A DNA stretch of 64,000 nt from Haloterrigena sp. KLK7. GTDB taxonomy: Archaea; Halobacteriota; Halobacteria; Halobacteriales; Natrialbaceae. Below, piece after piece: positions 47,963 through 58,138 of this stretch. The translations under genes and the position numbers were made by a program. Within the stretch, counting starts at the first letter, position 1; each line of letters starts with the position of its first letter. The stretch spans positions 3,658,001-3,722,000 of the forward strand of contig NZ_CP149787.1 in NCBI RefSeq assembly GCF_037914945.1, in the 5' to 3' direction. The notes below the pieces were generated by a model. It was not told where the DNA came from. It searched no databases and saw only the letters and a list, made by a program, of their open reading frames with translations.

Positions 47963-48142
47963 ACGTGACAGTTGGGTGTCGTTCGAAATAACTGTGCGGG
48001 ACTGGCGGACGAGCGCTCTCGCGTCCCGGACTGTCGCGCGGTTCGAATCGGCGGTCGTCGGTACCGGGCGACACCGCGTCGAGAGGGAAATCGGTCTCTC
48101 GCCGGGACAACCCACATCACGCTGTCGAACGAACGGTCGGGT

Positions 48143-48592
48143 ATGACGCTCGATACCGAGGCTCCCGATCCCCCCGCGCTCCGGGGACCGCAAGATCCGG
48201 GTGACTACGACGCCGTCGACGAACCCGAGGAGCGAACCGGCGACGACACGTACCGCGAGGACCTGGCCGACCTGCTCGAGGCGGGCGCCTGGGCGGACGC
48301 CTTCGACGACTGGGCCGACCGGACCGACCTGTCCGACGCGGCGTTTCGGGTCGTCCGCGAGGAAGGGTTGCTCCGCCGACTCGACTTCTACTGGAATCCG
48401 GCGGCCGAGGACGTCGGCTACCGCGTTCCACCGGTCCCCGAGGACCTGTTCGCGGCCCGCGAGACCCCCGAGTCGGACGACGTCGAGGACGTCGAAGAGG
48501 AGTTGGACGACCTCGCGCGGACGGTCAGCGAAGTGCTCGAGAACGATTACATCCACCGGGGGAGCGAGGAGTTCGGGTACGATTGGGAGTGA
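48143..48592 (+). CDS. Conserved haloarchaeal protein, paralogue of 49978-50442
   Basis: 149-aa acidic soluble protein. It shares with the gene at 49978 the block R-E-D/E-L-x3-L-E-x-G-A-W-x2-A-F-D-x-W, then x2-D/R-T-D-L and a later F-W/Y-W-x5-D-x-V-G-Y. The two are clearly paralogues of about 150 aa. No catalytic motif; the invariant Trp, Asp and Tyr residues suggest a small helical fold. It is divergent from the SHOCT gene and followed 56 bp later by an M20 peptidase gene. Confidence 0.8.
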   Translation: MTLDTEAPDPPALRGPQDPGDYDAVDEPEERTGDDTYREDLADLLEAGAWADAFDDWADRTDLSDAAFRVVREEGLLRRLDFYWNPAAEDVGYRVPPVPEDLFAARETPESDDVEDVEEELDDLARTVSEVLENDYIHRGSEEFGYDWE

Positions 48593-49911: not shown

Positions 49912-49977
49912 CGTCCGATCCTCGCCTTCCGACCGGAGGTGGGAATTCTTATCCGCGGACCCGCCCTACGTCCGCGT

Positions 49978-50442
49978 ATGACACTCGAGGTCGAACCCCC
50001 CGAGCCGCCGGAGCTGGACTTCGTCGACCCGAACGAGTACGAGGACGCGACGATCAGCGCCGACGGGGACGTCGACTACCGCCGCGAGGAGCTCCAGGAG
50101 TTCCTCGAGACGGGCGCCTGGGAGGAAGCGTTCGACGAGTGGCGCGAGGACACCGATCTCGAGGAACGGGAGTACGAGATCGCCCGGGAGTTGGATCTCT
50201 TCGCCGGTTTCGACTTCTTCTGGGACGACTTCGCCGACAGAGTCGGCTACCACGCGCCCGGCATTCCGGAGGACTGGCAGGCCCGGGAGTACCACCCCGA
50301 CCTCGACACGTGGGGAACCGTCTCCTCGATCAACGCCGAACTGACCGAATTCGGACAGATCGTCTCGGTGACCCTCAAGGAGGAGTACGTCGACTGGGAG
50401 GCCGAGTACGAACCGCCGGAGGACCTCCCGGACTTCGATTGA
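49978..50442 (+). CDS. Conserved haloarchaeal protein, paralogue of 48143-48592
   Basis: 154-aa acidic protein starting MTLEVEPPEPPELDFVDPNE. The shared core with its paralogue is REELQEFLETGAWEEAFDEW, then FDFFWDDFADRVGYHAPGIP. The start at 49978 gives the same MTL-E-x-E-x-P-x-P-P opening as the first copy (MTLDTEAPDPP). Function not recognised; both copies read in the same direction as the M20 gene between them. Confidence 0.82.
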   Translation: MTLEVEPPEPPELDFVDPNEYEDATISADGDVDYRREELQEFLETGAWEEAFDEWREDTDLEEREYEIARELDLFAGFDFFWDDFADRVGYHAPGIPEDWQAREYHPDLDTWGTVSSINAELTEFGQIVSVTLKEEYVDWEAEYEPPEDLPDFD

Positions 50443-52760: not shown

Positions 52761-55700
52761 TTACCGCCTCGCCGCGACGGCACCGGCGATCAGAACGACG
52801 CCGAGCACGACGGCGACGACACCGATCGTCCCCTCGCCCGCGAGCGCGAGCGAGCCGCCGGCGACGACGCCGGCACCGCCCCCGCCGGCAGCGAGCGGGA
52901 CGACCACATCGCCCGTCGCGGACGACTGATCCTGGTCCCGAGACCGGTCGTCCGTCTCGAGTCGCTCTCGCAACTCACCGACGTCCGTCCGCAGCGCCTC
53001 GAGTTTCTCCTCGCGGGCCGACGACGACTCTACGTCGTCGATCGCCGACTCGAGCGCGTCCAGCCGATCCGAGAGCCCCGTCAGCCGGTCGTCCGTCGAC
53101 TCGAGCGCCGCCTCGTCCGGCGTGGCGTCGAGCGCCGCCGCGAGTTCGTCGACCTCGCTCGCGACCGACTCGAGGCGGTCGTCGTGCGCCTCGATCGAGT
53201 CGGCCTGCCGATCGAGCCGGGACCCGTGATCGCTCGTTCGATCGTCGAGTTCGTCCATCCGATCGTCGAGTTCGTCCATCCGATCGTCGAACTCGCTCGT
53301 CCGGTCGTCGAGTCCGTCGGTGCGGGCGGCCAGTTCGTCGACGCGATCCCCGACGGCCTCGAGGCGTTCCGCGACGTCGTCCGGCGCCGTCTCGCGGTCG
53401 GCCTCGAGCGCCGCGATCGCCTCGCGCGTTTCGTCGGACGACGCGCGAAGCGCATCGAGATCGCGCTCGAGACCGTCGATCGACTCCTCGAGCGTCGCAA
53501 CGGCCTCCGTGGACGCGGTCGTTTCGTCGAGCGAGTCGAGTCGCTCGTCGAGTTCGGCGACGCGTTCTGAAACCCGCTCGACGTCGGCGTCGACGCCGTC
53601 GACGGTTTCGGTGACCCCTTCGAATCGGTCGTCGATGTCGGCCTCGAGCGAGTCGACCTCGGCATCGAGACCCTCGAGACGGTCCTCGAGCGCGTCGGTC
53701 TCGTCCGCCACGGTCGTTCGGAGGTCGGTCGCGACGTCGTCGAGGTCCGCCTCGACCGAGGCGATTCGATCCGTCAGCGTCGTCTCCAGTTCCTCGAACC
53801 GAGCCTCGAGCGCGCCGAGTTCGTCCGCGAGGGCGTCGATCTCCGCCGTCGCCGACTCGACCGTCTCGCGCGTCCCCGCGAGCGAATCGGACAGTTCGGC
53901 GACCGCGTCGGCGTCCGGAGCCGCCTCGTCGAGCCGATCGAGCCGCGACTCGAGGGTCGCGAAGTCGTCCTCGATCGATCCGATCGCGTCCTCGAGTCTC
54001 GTCTCGACGTCGGCCGTCCGGTCCTCGAGTCGCGCCTCGGTTTCCGTCACCGTCGCTTCGAGGTCGGCGGTCGCCGCCGCGAGTCGGTCGTCGACGTCGG
54101 CCTCGAGCGAGTCGAACTCGGCGCCGAGGTCGTCGACGTCGCTCCCGACGGCCTCGAGGTCGGCCGCGAGATCGGTGACGGTGTCCTCGAGCGCCGCCCG
54201 TTCCGCGAGGTCGTCGAGTCGTTCCGCGACGGCCGCGACGCCATCGCCGAGTTCCCCGAGCTCCGCCTCGAGGGCGTCGAGTTCGTCTTCGACGGCATCG
54301 ACCCGCTCGCCGTCGGCCGCCGTCGACTCGAGGTCAGCGATCGTCTCTCGAGCGCGTTCCAGGCGCGCTTCCAGCTCGTCGGCTCGGTCGCCCAGCGTCT
54401 CGCGGGCGTCGGTGACGTCGTCGGCCAGCGTCTCGACGCGGTCGTCCGTCGAGGCGAGGCGTTCGTCGACGTCCGTGAGGTCCTCGTCGACAGCTTCGAG
54501 ATCCGTCGCGGTCGCCTCGAGTTCGCCCTCGACCGCGTCGATTTCGTCCTCGATCGTCGCCACCACCTCCTCGATATCGGCGTCGATGGCAGCCAGGTCG
54601 TCGTCGACCGTCTCCTCGATCGCCTCGATGTCCGCCGCGAGTCGCTCGAGGTCGTCGTCGGTCCGCTCGACGTGGTCGTCGAGCCGATCGTCGACGCCGT
54701 CGATCCGAGCCGACTGCGTCTCGAGACCGTCGTCCAGATCGTCGATACGGCTCCCGATCCGGTCGACGTCCTCGCCGACCGCGTCGAGCGTCTCGTCCAA
54801 TCGATCGATCGTCCCGATCGCGTCCTCGAGGGCGGCCGCGGACGCGGTCTCCGCCTCGAGACGCGCTAAGTCCGTTCGGAGCGTCGCCAGCCGATCGTCC
54901 AGCGCGGCCGCTCTGTCGTCGACCCCTTCGAGATCGTCGGTGAGCGCCTCGATCCGCTCCTCGAGGGCCGCGCGTTCGTCCGCGGTCGTCTCCGACAGCG
55001 CCTCGAGGTCGGCCTCGAGCCCGGATTCCAGCCCGTCGAGGTCCGCCGCCAGCTCCGATTCGAGATCGTCGAGATCACCCTCCAGCCCGGCCTCGAGCGC
55101 CTCGAGATCGGCCGCCAGATCGGTCGCGAGCCCGTCGACGTCCGCTTCCAGTTCCGCGAAGGCCGTCGAGAGCGCGTCGAGCTCGTCCCCGAGTTCGTCG
55201 ACCGTCTCGTCGCTCGCGTGCGTCTCGCTCTCGGCCTCGAGGTCGCGCAGGTCGGCGGCGAACGCCTCGAGGCGCTCGTCGAGGTCCGCGACCGTCTCGG
55301 CCTCGGCCGTCCGCTCCTCGACGTACTCGAGCTCCTCGAACGCCGCCTCGAGGTCGGTTCGAACCGATTCGATCTCCTCGTCGCGGTCGGCGAGCCGGTC
55401 GAACAGCTGCTCGATGGCGTCGTCCGCGCGGTCGCGGTCCGCGTCGGCCCCGCCGTCCAGATCGCCGTCGAAGGCGAGCGTCGTCGATCCGTTCGCGTCC
55501 GGAGCGGCCGCGACCCCGCTCGCTCCGTCGCCACCGGCGCCATCGTCCTCGCCCGTCGACCAGGTGACGTCCTCGTAGGCGTCGACGTCGTCCTCGGCCG
55601 CCGCGAGGGCGCCTCGGGCGGCGCTCCCGGCGGGATCGTCTGCCAGCCGCACGCCGCGAACCGAGAACGGGAGCGGCGCCGCGTCGAACCGCCCGCCGAG

Positions 55701-56534
55701 CAGGAACTCGAGTCCCTCGATCGCGCCGTCGCCGGCGACCGCGATCGGGACGGCCAGCCCCTGCTGGACGTCGTTCTCGTCGGCTTCGGCCGCGACCGCG
55801 TCGGCGAGGTCGCCGATCAGCGCGTCGTAGGCCTGCGCGAGCGCGCTCTCGATCTCGCCCGACGCCGCGTCGGGATCGAGCGTGAACTCCTCGAGGACGG
55901 CCGCGATCGCCGCCGGCTCGCGGCCGGTCTCGGCCGCCGCCCGCTCGACGATCCACTCGCTGCCCTTCGCGAGCGAGAACGCCAGCGCGGGCACGCCGTA
56001 GTAGGCCAGCGCGACGCCGGTCGTCTGCGACCCGAGACAGATCCCGAGCCCGGTGTAGTTGTCATCGGCCAGCTGGTCGTAGACGACGGCGAACCCCCTG
56101 CTGATCGGTGTGGCGTCGGCCGCGTACTCGTCCACGACCGACGCGACGGTCTCGCGGTGGGCCTCGGTCGGCTCCGCGGCGTCGACCAGCGTCCCCGGCG
56201 TCGTATAGCAGAGGCGGCCGTCGCCAGCGTCGATCTCGAGCGTCTCCTCGAGCAGCGCCTCGAGGACCGGTTCGGCGTAGCCGTCGACCGTCAAGACCCC
56301 GTTAGAAAACAGCGACTCGGGCGTCGTCCCGGTCGCGTCGGCGACCGCCTCGGCGGTCGTCCCGACCGCGTAGGTCGTTCCGTCTCGCTCTACGAACAGT
56401 CCGTCCTCCGGCGAGTCGGTCGCCGTGACGTCGTCGACCGGAACGACGACCGGCGGTACCGATTCGATCGCGTCCCCGGCCGGTTCGGTGGCCACCCTGA
56501 GTGCTCCCGGTCCGATATCGAGACCCGTTCCCAT
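52761..56534 (-). CDS. Actin/Hsp70-like domain fused to giant coiled coil with C-terminal membrane anchor
   Basis: 1257-aa protein. Residues 1-315 have the layout of an actin-fold ATPase: phosphate-1 GLDIGPGALRV (D6, G8), phosphate-2 GICLGSQTTGVALAYYGVPA (164-183) followed by SLAKGSEWIVERA, and an adenosine-type PIAVAGDGAIEGLEFLLGG (263-281). The acidic residue normal in phosphate-2 is Cys166, and the usual GG of the adenosine motif is GD, so nucleotide hydrolysis may be altered. Residues about 366-1195 are an almost unbroken, Asp/Glu/Ala/Leu-rich coiled coil with almost no lysine. The end has two hydrophobic stretches and terminates AARR, suggesting a membrane hairpin. Looks cytoskeletal or scaffold-like; not a family I recognise. 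Confidence 0.85.
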   Translation of the reverse strand: MGTGLDIGPGALRVATEPAGDAIESVPPVVVPVDDVTATDSPEDGLFVERDGTTYAVGTTAEAVADATGTTPESLFSNGVLTVDGYAEPVLEALLEETLEIDAGDGRLCYTTPGTLVDAAEPTEAHRETVASVVDEYAADATPISRGFAVVYDQLADDNYTGLGICLGSQTTGVALAYYGVPALAFSLAKGSEWIVERAAAETGREPAAIAAVLEEFTLDPDAASGEIESALAQAYDALIGDLADAVAAEADENDVQQGLAVPIAVAGDGAIEGLEFLLGGRFDAAPLPFSVRGVRLADDPAGSAARGALAAAEDDVDAYEDVTWSTGEDDGAGGDGASGVAAAPDANGSTTLAFDGDLDGGADADRDRADDAIEQLFDRLADRDEEIESVRTDLEAAFEELEYVEERTAEAETVADLDERLEAFAADLRDLEAESETHASDETVDELGDELDALSTAFAELEADVDGLATDLAADLEALEAGLEGDLDDLESELAADLDGLESGLEADLEALSETTADERAALEERIEALTDDLEGVDDRAAALDDRLATLRTDLARLEAETASAAALEDAIGTIDRLDETLDAVGEDVDRIGSRIDDLDDGLETQSARIDGVDDRLDDHVERTDDDLERLAADIEAIEETVDDDLAAIDADIEEVVATIEDEIDAVEGELEATATDLEAVDEDLTDVDERLASTDDRVETLADDVTDARETLGDRADELEARLERARETIADLESTAADGERVDAVEDELDALEAELGELGDGVAAVAERLDDLAERAALEDTVTDLAADLEAVGSDVDDLGAEFDSLEADVDDRLAAATADLEATVTETEARLEDRTADVETRLEDAIGSIEDDFATLESRLDRLDEAAPDADAVAELSDSLAGTRETVESATAEIDALADELGALEARFEELETTLTDRIASVEADLDDVATDLRTTVADETDALEDRLEGLDAEVDSLEADIDDRFEGVTETVDGVDADVERVSERVAELDERLDSLDETTASTEAVATLEESIDGLERDLDALRASSDETREAIAALEADRETAPDDVAERLEAVGDRVDELAARTDGLDDRTSEFDDRMDELDDRMDELDDRTSDHGSRLDRQADSIEAHDDRLESVASEVDELAAALDATPDEAALESTDDRLTGLSDRLDALESAIDDVESSSAREEKLEALRTDVGELRERLETDDRSRDQDQSSATGDVVVPLAAGGGGAGVVAGGSLALAGEGTIGVVAVVLGVVLIAGAVAARR
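53241..53303. repeat. 21-bp tandem repeat encoding coiled-coil heptads
   Basis: Two exact copies of a 21-bp unit (53241-53261, 53262-53282) and a diverged third encode successive heptads DDRMDEL-DDRMDEL. Flanking units DDRTSEF and DDRTSDH are related. It shows that the coil grew, at least in part, by heptad duplication. Confidence 0.85.
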
Positions 56535-57515: not shown

Positions 57516-57673
57516 CGGCCCTACTGTCTCTATCCGAACGGATATGTCTGTTCATTTCACAACTCGAATTGAAAATTCAATATCGATGGTGGTTGGCGTT
57601 CGTCGCGACTGCGTCGGAATCCGACGCGGCGAGGACACGTTTTTTGCGCTGGGAAACCATCACTACGACCGAA

Positions 57674-58138
57674 ATGTCCGCCGAGAATCCGCTCGCCGAG
57701 GTCGTCGACAACCTCGTGTACGAACCCGCACAGGTCCACGAGCACGGCATCGATCTGACTGTCAGCGCCGTCTACGAGGTCGCCGCGCCCGGTCGACTGG
57801 ATTTCGGCGGCGACGAACTCGAGGACGCCGACCTCGAGCCGGTGCCAACCGAACTCCGCGACCCGGACGACGAGTTCGGCTGGTGGGACCTCGAGGGCGG
57901 CCAGTACGTCCTCCAGCACAACGAGTTCCTGACCGACCTCGAGGAGCCCGTTCAACTCCAGCCGCGCAACGACCTGCTGGCTCGCGGCGGCTCTCACCCC
58001 TCGGTGCTGGTCGCGTCGCACCTGCCGCTGATTCCGCTGACCGTCGCCGACGGCGGCCTGCGAATCAAGGAGAACGCACGGGTCTCGACCCTGGTTCCGG
58101 TCGGTGCGGTCGGCGGCGGCTCCCCTCGATCCGAGTAG
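57674..58138 (+). CDS. dUTPase/dCTP-deaminase-fold protein
   Basis: 154-aa protein with EFGWWDLEGGQYVLQHNEFL and LQPRNDLLARGGSHPSVLVA, which correspond to the central beta strands and the R-S/N-S/D-L-A/L motif of trimeric dUTPase/Dcd enzymes. LRIKENARVSTLVPVG closes the jelly roll. The C-terminal Gly-rich P-loop-like arm of dUTPases is missing. It may be an inactive or differently specific member. The ATG at 57674 starts MSAENPLAEVVDN. Confidence 0.8.
   Translation: MSAENPLAEVVDNLVYEPAQVHEHGIDLTVSAVYEVAAPGRLDFGGDELEDADLEPVPTELRDPDDEFGWWDLEGGQYVLQHNEFLTDLEEPVQLQPRNDLLARGGSHPSVLVASHLPLIPLTVADGGLRIKENARVSTLVPVGAVGGGSPRSE

Follow-up and report, generated by a model that had tools for sequence, protein, structure and literature searches.

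A minus-strand gene in the 64,000-nucleotide stretch of Haloterrigena sp. KLK7 analysed here (the window, in whose numbering the gene is described) encodes a 1257-residue protein in which an actin-fold head of the Volactin family is joined, through a long coiled coil, to a hydrophobic anchor at the C-terminus. Judged by its sequence, this long form is a widespread membrane-tethered paralogue of volactin, and we give a probability of about 0.45 to the reading that it anchors, caps or scaffolds volactin filaments at the membrane. The open reading frame is single and unbroken, with 1257 codons running from an ATG at 56534 to a stop that ends at 52761, and the protein is laid out as head (residues 1–320), coiled coil (about 379–1190) and anchor, bearing out the initial annotation of this DNA, which had read these three parts in one intact frame. 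Its features are as follows.

52761..56534, minus strand: complete gene for the long volactin paralogue tethered to the membrane, 1257 residues (open reading frame and Pfam)
55575..56534, minus strand: actin-fold head, residues 1–320, Pfam Volactin PF25216 over 1–313 (Pfam, AlphaFold, Foldseek, structural Z-scores)
55401..55574, minus strand: Gly/Asp/Ala linker of low complexity, leading into the first turns of the coil, residues 321–378 (composition, substitution rates)
52950..55400, minus strand: coiled coil, residues 379–1195, heptads with frequent 3-residue skips (hendecads; heptad model)
52764..52922, minus strand: conserved Gly-rich hydrophobic anchor, residues 1205–1257, ending AARR (hydropathy, AlphaFold, conservation)

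An artefact of assembly or fusion, by which separate genes would have been joined, is ruled out by 60 further long loci in haloarchaea with the same head–coil order, about half of them with the same neighbours; 58 of the 60 extend to the tail and the other two stop at contig ends.

The Volactin-type head and its relatives

Residues 1–313 match Pfam Volactin (PF25216) over the entire profile (1–321/321) with E=1.5e-119 and 399.7 bits, the curated cut-off being 35 bits. Volactin was the top match of the long protein, and the Salactin profile was not among the best 25 of its 95 matches; a Salactin-family protein scanned for comparison gave 597 bits to PF25229 and 23 bits to Volactin, the latter a weak match of its last 90 residues. 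The non-Volactin Pfam matches displayed (DUF1664, EzrA, SMC and others) were of the coil-composition type and fell within residues 360–1200. An AlphaFold model of residues 1–325, computed from an alignment of 42 volactin heads, reached a mean predicted local distance difference test (pLDDT) score of 90.7 and a predicted template modelling score of 0.91. The nearest solved fold was MamK (5ljv; Z 27.2, root-mean-square deviation 3.0 over 289 residues, Foldseek E 2.4e-12), followed by BeeR (8r2n; Z 25.4) and MreB (1jcg; Z 25.0, root-mean-square deviation 3.4 over 287). By these matches the whole head has the two-domain fold of the actin superfamily, as the initial annotation had guessed from its motifs. 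The family, however, is a known one: membership of PF25216 makes the protein a paralogue of volactin rather than a new actin standing by itself.

The same genome carries an ordinary volactin of 342 residues (G000:C1:3516157-3517119; 462.7 bits to PF25216). A first sample of 101 genomes from the same family contained a volactin match in 100 and more than one in about 70, and two matches were present in 76/101 genomes of a second sample. Second-copy long forms, among the matches listed, all lay in open frames of 649–1564 residues, and no long form without a short volactin was seen among 101 sampled genomes of the family. Complete long proteins span 575–1313 residues, and L150, at about 505 residues, is another short member. 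Outside the family, long forms were verified in three genomes (L071-L073; 866, 795 and 775 residues), and the named carriers include Haloterrigena, Natrinema, Natronorubrum, Natrialba, Halovivax, Haloarchaeobius and Halorubellus.

When 80 heads were placed in a maximum-likelihood tree, a branch with 97/98 support separated all 61 long from all 19 short ones, the program warning of long branches, L071-L073 among them. Median identity was about 93% between short volactins, 49% between long forms and 32% between the two groups, and the head of the 1257-residue protein is 30–34% identical to short volactins. Both its position outside the short volactins and its substitutions at the nucleotide site (T9, N11, E152, S172, G176 and T277 to P9, A11, R146, C166, Q170 and D269) mark the long form, on this comparison, as a sister paralogue of volactin and not a VolA orthologue, and ancient paralogy is the best explanation of the sequence relationships. 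Elsewhere, in a collection of plasmid sequences, Volactin-family genes annotated as hypothetical lie on large replicons at NC_006395.1:109631-110425 (Haloarcula marismortui) and CP031304.1:786957-787883 (Natrinema thermotolerans), and a Volactin match across two frames at G180:C4:12424-13352 (profile 1-117 and 115-310) is a probable decayed extra copy.

The nucleotide site of the long form

The elements of the nucleotide site were placed on the head by alignment.

56502..56525, minus strand: phosphate-1 loop, residues 4–11 GLDIGPGA; near-invariant GLDVGTMN in short volactin
56097..56099, minus strand: Arg146, aligned with the catalytic Glu in MreB (E of DEPMA) and with Glu152 in short volactin
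56016..56051, minus strand: phosphate-2 loop, residues 162–173 GLGICLGSQTTG
55707..55748, minus strand: adenosine-loop remnant, residues 263–276 PIAVAGDGAIEGLE

The Glu of the MreB motif DEPMA is catalytic. The short-volactin profile, aligned with Caulobacter MreB at a weak score, sets INEGMA on DEPMA and GISFGAGMTNV on VVDIGGGTTEV, on which grounds we equate Glu152 with the place of the catalytic Glu and Ser172 with that of the phosphate-2 Asp. Residues T9, N11, E152, S172, G174, G176, G275 and T277 are fixed in 48/48 short volactins. In the 1257-residue protein, Cys166 corresponds to Ser172 in short volactin and to Asp in MreB, Gln170 replaces Gly176, and the TGGT of the adenosine loop is lost, with one residue deleted and Thr changed to Asp. 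The Glu152 position holds no Glu in any of the 61 long heads, being Lys in 23, Arg in 20, Thr in 13 and other residues in 5, one of them Gln. T9 is retained in 24 of them, N11 in none (mostly Ala or Thr), G176 in 6 and T277 in 3, and the deletion of Thr274 in 61/61 leaves the adenosine loop one residue shorter.

Together, the loss of the catalytic Glu, the phosphate-1 Asn and the adenosine-loop Thr points to a head without normal turnover, one that is probably independent of ATP and possibly binds no nucleotide at all; where a working ATP site would have Glu or Gln, the 1257-residue protein has Arg. The initial annotation had noticed Cys166 and the adenosine GD, both of which are present, and had argued from the change of Asp to Cys to abnormal turnover. 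An abnormal site is upheld by the other substitutions, but Cys166 alone is undiagnostic and was dismissed as sole proof of inactivity, because short volactin, with Ser at the same place, forms dynamic filaments in vivo (VolA HVO_2015, Haloferax; PMC10869688).

An active, self-polymerising actin, anchored in the membrane, that still binds and turns over nucleotide despite its altered residues and builds filaments of its own there would agree with the conserved overall fold, with the phosphate-1 Asp6 retained in 58/61 long heads and with the departure of short volactin itself from the MreB consensus at phosphate-2. We nevertheless consider it improbable, given that no long head has the catalytic Glu and most have a basic residue in its place, that the phosphate-2 Gly176 and the adenosine Thr are mostly lost, and that the adenosine loop is shortened.

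Coiled coil, anchor and locus

A cyclic 7-state heptad model on residues 366–1195 gained 332 nats, versus 55 ± 2 on shuffled sequences, and an 11-state model gained 255 versus 82; periods of 5, 6 and 8 gave almost no gain over shuffles. A chance coil from acidic halophile composition is thereby ruled out. Two core positions of the 7-state model are 75–80% V/I/L/M/F, and the phase changes 25 times along the best path, the commonest change being a step of 4 instead of 1 (hendecad stutters). In a sliding scan with 84-residue segments, z stayed at 7–12 without a break between about 379 and 1190 and was close to zero in the head, in agreement with the coil first proposed for 366–1195. The heptad model trained only on the 1257-residue protein was also applied to the coils of 19 further long forms, and z was 11–34 in all of them.

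DNA tandem repeats in the coil have units of 21, 33, 63 and 66 bp, equal to 7, 11, 21 and 22 codons, and small coil indels between same-genus orthologues measure 3, 4, 7, 13, 14, 15 and 20 residues, 7 being the commonest. These unit and indel sizes suggest that the coil lengthens and shortens mostly in register, in steps of 7 or 11 residues. The earlier estimate of about 120 nm holds for one continuous rod (830 x 0.15 nm); with some 25 phase shifts and three prolines (873, 1051 and 1139), a rigid rod of this length is an upper limit and the real reach is probably less.

A chromosome or nucleoid tether, in which an SMC/Rad50-like coil would link DNA to the membrane, could account for matches by coil composition to models of SMC and of archaea-specific SMC-related proteins, none of which reaches the curated cut-off. 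These matches are confined to the coil, however; the protein has no SMC/Rad50 ATPase head, and the Pfam scan detected no DNA-binding domain. We regard such a tether as very unlikely, and the chromosome organisation suggested in the initial annotation is unsupported. Nor does the protein belong to the SMC, Rad50 or ASRP proteins, having no ABC-type ATPase head and only sub-cut-off coil matches, or to EzrA, to which its best match covers coil only (653–835) and whose hydrophobic N-terminus it lacks.

At the C-terminus, a Gly-rich stretch PLAAGGGGAGVVAGGSLALAG is followed by a hydrophobic helix, an arrangement that recurs with variation in the other long loci. Only the last 19–35 residues of the 1257-residue protein passed a strict hydropathy test, and the clear membrane span is segment 1235–1256 only, the hydrophobic segment before it being Gly-rich and shorter. 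AlphaFold of the last 131 residues gave a 65-residue helix (1141–1205) and then helices at 1218–1231 (pLDDT about 60) and 1235–1256 (about 85–92). As hydropathy and model support just the final segment well, a one-span or re-entrant tail is as possible as a two-span hairpin; of the membrane hairpin originally proposed, the hydrophobic C-terminus is real and conserved, but the second span alone is clear.

Searched against 41 genomes at E<1e-5, the tail profile found long volactins, one unrelated Haloarchaeobius coiled-coil protein and nothing else; other frames near E 1e-5 or better (L149, L150) are truncated or short long-volactins. The Haloarchaeobius protein (L147:3020-5653, L148:3542-6163; E near 1e-5) has 870 residues, with a coiled coil, one mid-chain membrane stretch and a long acidic tail. 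Weak matches were located beside short volactin at G037:C4:68075-68203 (E 6.5e-4) and G009:C49:71183-71305 (E 0.025), the former in a 329-residue frame (L151:2049-3035) that reads as DUF7139-like and may reflect chance or a shared membrane segment.

Ratios of non-synonymous to synonymous substitution rates (dN/dS) versus four same-genus orthologues were 0.25–0.37 for the head, 0.45–0.51 for the coil, 0.51–0.59 for the tail and 0.42–1.06 for linker residues 321–365, and by this measure head, coil and tail are under purifying selection. A convergent MFS gene lies downstream at 31/60 long loci and a same-strand MOSC gene upstream at 28/60; since these neighbours recur, we read the long-volactin locus as stable rather than mobile. 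No obvious functional partner gene was found among the recurrent neighbours of the 60 loci.

Nearby in the window, similar small acidic proteins (LLEAGAWADAFDDWADRTDL / FLETGAWEEAFDEWREDTDL) are encoded at 47972-48592 and 49939-50442 on either side of an M20-type peptidase; the 49939-50442 protein has no Pfam match and occurs near 31/60 long volactin genes. A 189-residue protein at 57569-58138, likewise without a Pfam match and by eye dCTP deaminase/dUTPase-like, is found upstream in 10/60 loci. At the ordinary volactin of the same genome (L099:8158-9186), the adjoining gene 98 bp upstream encodes a 299-residue DUF7139 membrane protein (PF23600, E=1.6e-48; L099:7160-8059), and a DUF7139 gene is present at 16/17 short-volactin loci from several haloarchaeal families. 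The encoded protein is a candidate for a partner of volactin in an operon, or for its membrane anchor.

Possible function and comparison with known systems

One study describes volactin as the sole actin homologue identified so far in Haloferax volcanii (PMC7617734). In Haloferax its filaments span the cytoplasm with tips that touch the membrane (PMC10869688), which offers a place for such an anchor to act; in the open-access literature searched, we found no account of how these tips are held there. In the reading that we favour, the decayed volactin-type head would be an ATP-independent binder of ordinary volactin or of one filament end, chains would pair through the coil as a dimer, and the C-terminus would sit in the cytoplasmic membrane. 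The head would then reach tens of nanometres, at most about 120 nm, into the cytoplasm, and the protein would hold filament ends at, or some distance from, the membrane. We put forward only tentatively that this is a dedicated pseudo-actin which, needing no ATP, co-assembles with volactin filaments, or caps them, and links them to the membrane through a coil whose length evolves as heptads and hendecads are duplicated. With subdomain boundaries set by analogy to MreB, short-volactin residues are retained in long heads at 49% in the first half of IIA, 40% in its second half, 32% in IIB, 35% at the start of IA, 24% in the middle of IA and 18% in IB; a best-kept IIA and least-kept IB fit the pattern of a one-sided binder.

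Several points weigh against this reading. The IIA/IB pattern may be usual actin variability, IB often being the most variable subdomain, and the head that would bind ordinary volactin is only about 33% identical to it. Coil length varies widely, and hence no fixed distance is set. Roughly one in four genomes of the family, and nearly all other haloarchaea, have volactin alone, most other haloarchaeal families lacking the long form, so that volactin does not need it. Their co-occurrence carries little weight, since almost every genome of the family has short volactin. As to the nucleotide site, the eight contact residues are 16% retained in long heads versus 35–36% for short-invariant columns overall, yet 12 nucleotide-site columns, a set that takes in structural Asp6, Gly8, Thr178 and Gly276, are together retained at 0.42 versus 0.36 for random short-invariant columns. 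A faster-than-rest loss is unsupported for this set, and we therefore describe the site of the long form as decayed by its sequence, without evidence of special removal.

A membrane scaffold independent of volactin, with the head as a protein-binding module and the coil as a self-assembling tethered cable for envelope, receptors or other cargo, would also suit the lost ATP-site residues and the low identity to short volactin. The actin-like domain of GspL serves as a protein-binding module in type II secretion. Such a scaffold would be in line with a conserved head core and tail around a fast-evolving coil of variable length, and with a locus whose neighbours are MFS and MOSC genes and which shares no operon with volactin. 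It is less easily reconciled with head conservation that peaks in the IIA core shared with volactin, or with a long form never seen apart from volactin in the genomes sampled, and we hold it to be the main rival explanation, possible though doubtful.

Among known systems, volactin (VolA, HVO_2015, PF25216) shares its family and actin fold with the whole head, but ordinary volactin has about 340 residues, invariant nucleotide-site residues and neither coil nor membrane anchor, whereas the long form adds about 940 residues. Salactin (PF25229, PMC10746226) is likewise a haloarchaeal actin fold, in a separate Pfam family and with a single domain of about 380 residues. MamK, MreB and BeeR are the nearest folds (Z 27-25), yet are only 16–21% identical to the long head and have an active nucleotide site and no coiled-coil stalk with a C-terminal membrane anchor. 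The Volactin family is thus known, and its combination with coil and anchor appears new within the open-access literature searched on volactin, salactin and archaeal coiled-coil actins, in which we found this architecture nowhere described, in line with the initial annotation. Very little has been described of the actin cytoskeletons of archaea, and long volactin is a concrete, deletable candidate for tip-to-membrane attachment in one large haloarchaeal family. A parallel in principle is the cytoplasmic domain of GspL, an actin fold without a normal ATPase role whose own chain fixes it to the membrane, though it belongs to another family, lacks an 800-residue coil and is part of type II secretion. 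RodZ and EzrA are membrane-tethered holders of cytoskeletal filaments, neither with an actin-fold head; if the favoured reading is true, long volactin would be a natural case of an actin that duplicated and then served as its own tether.

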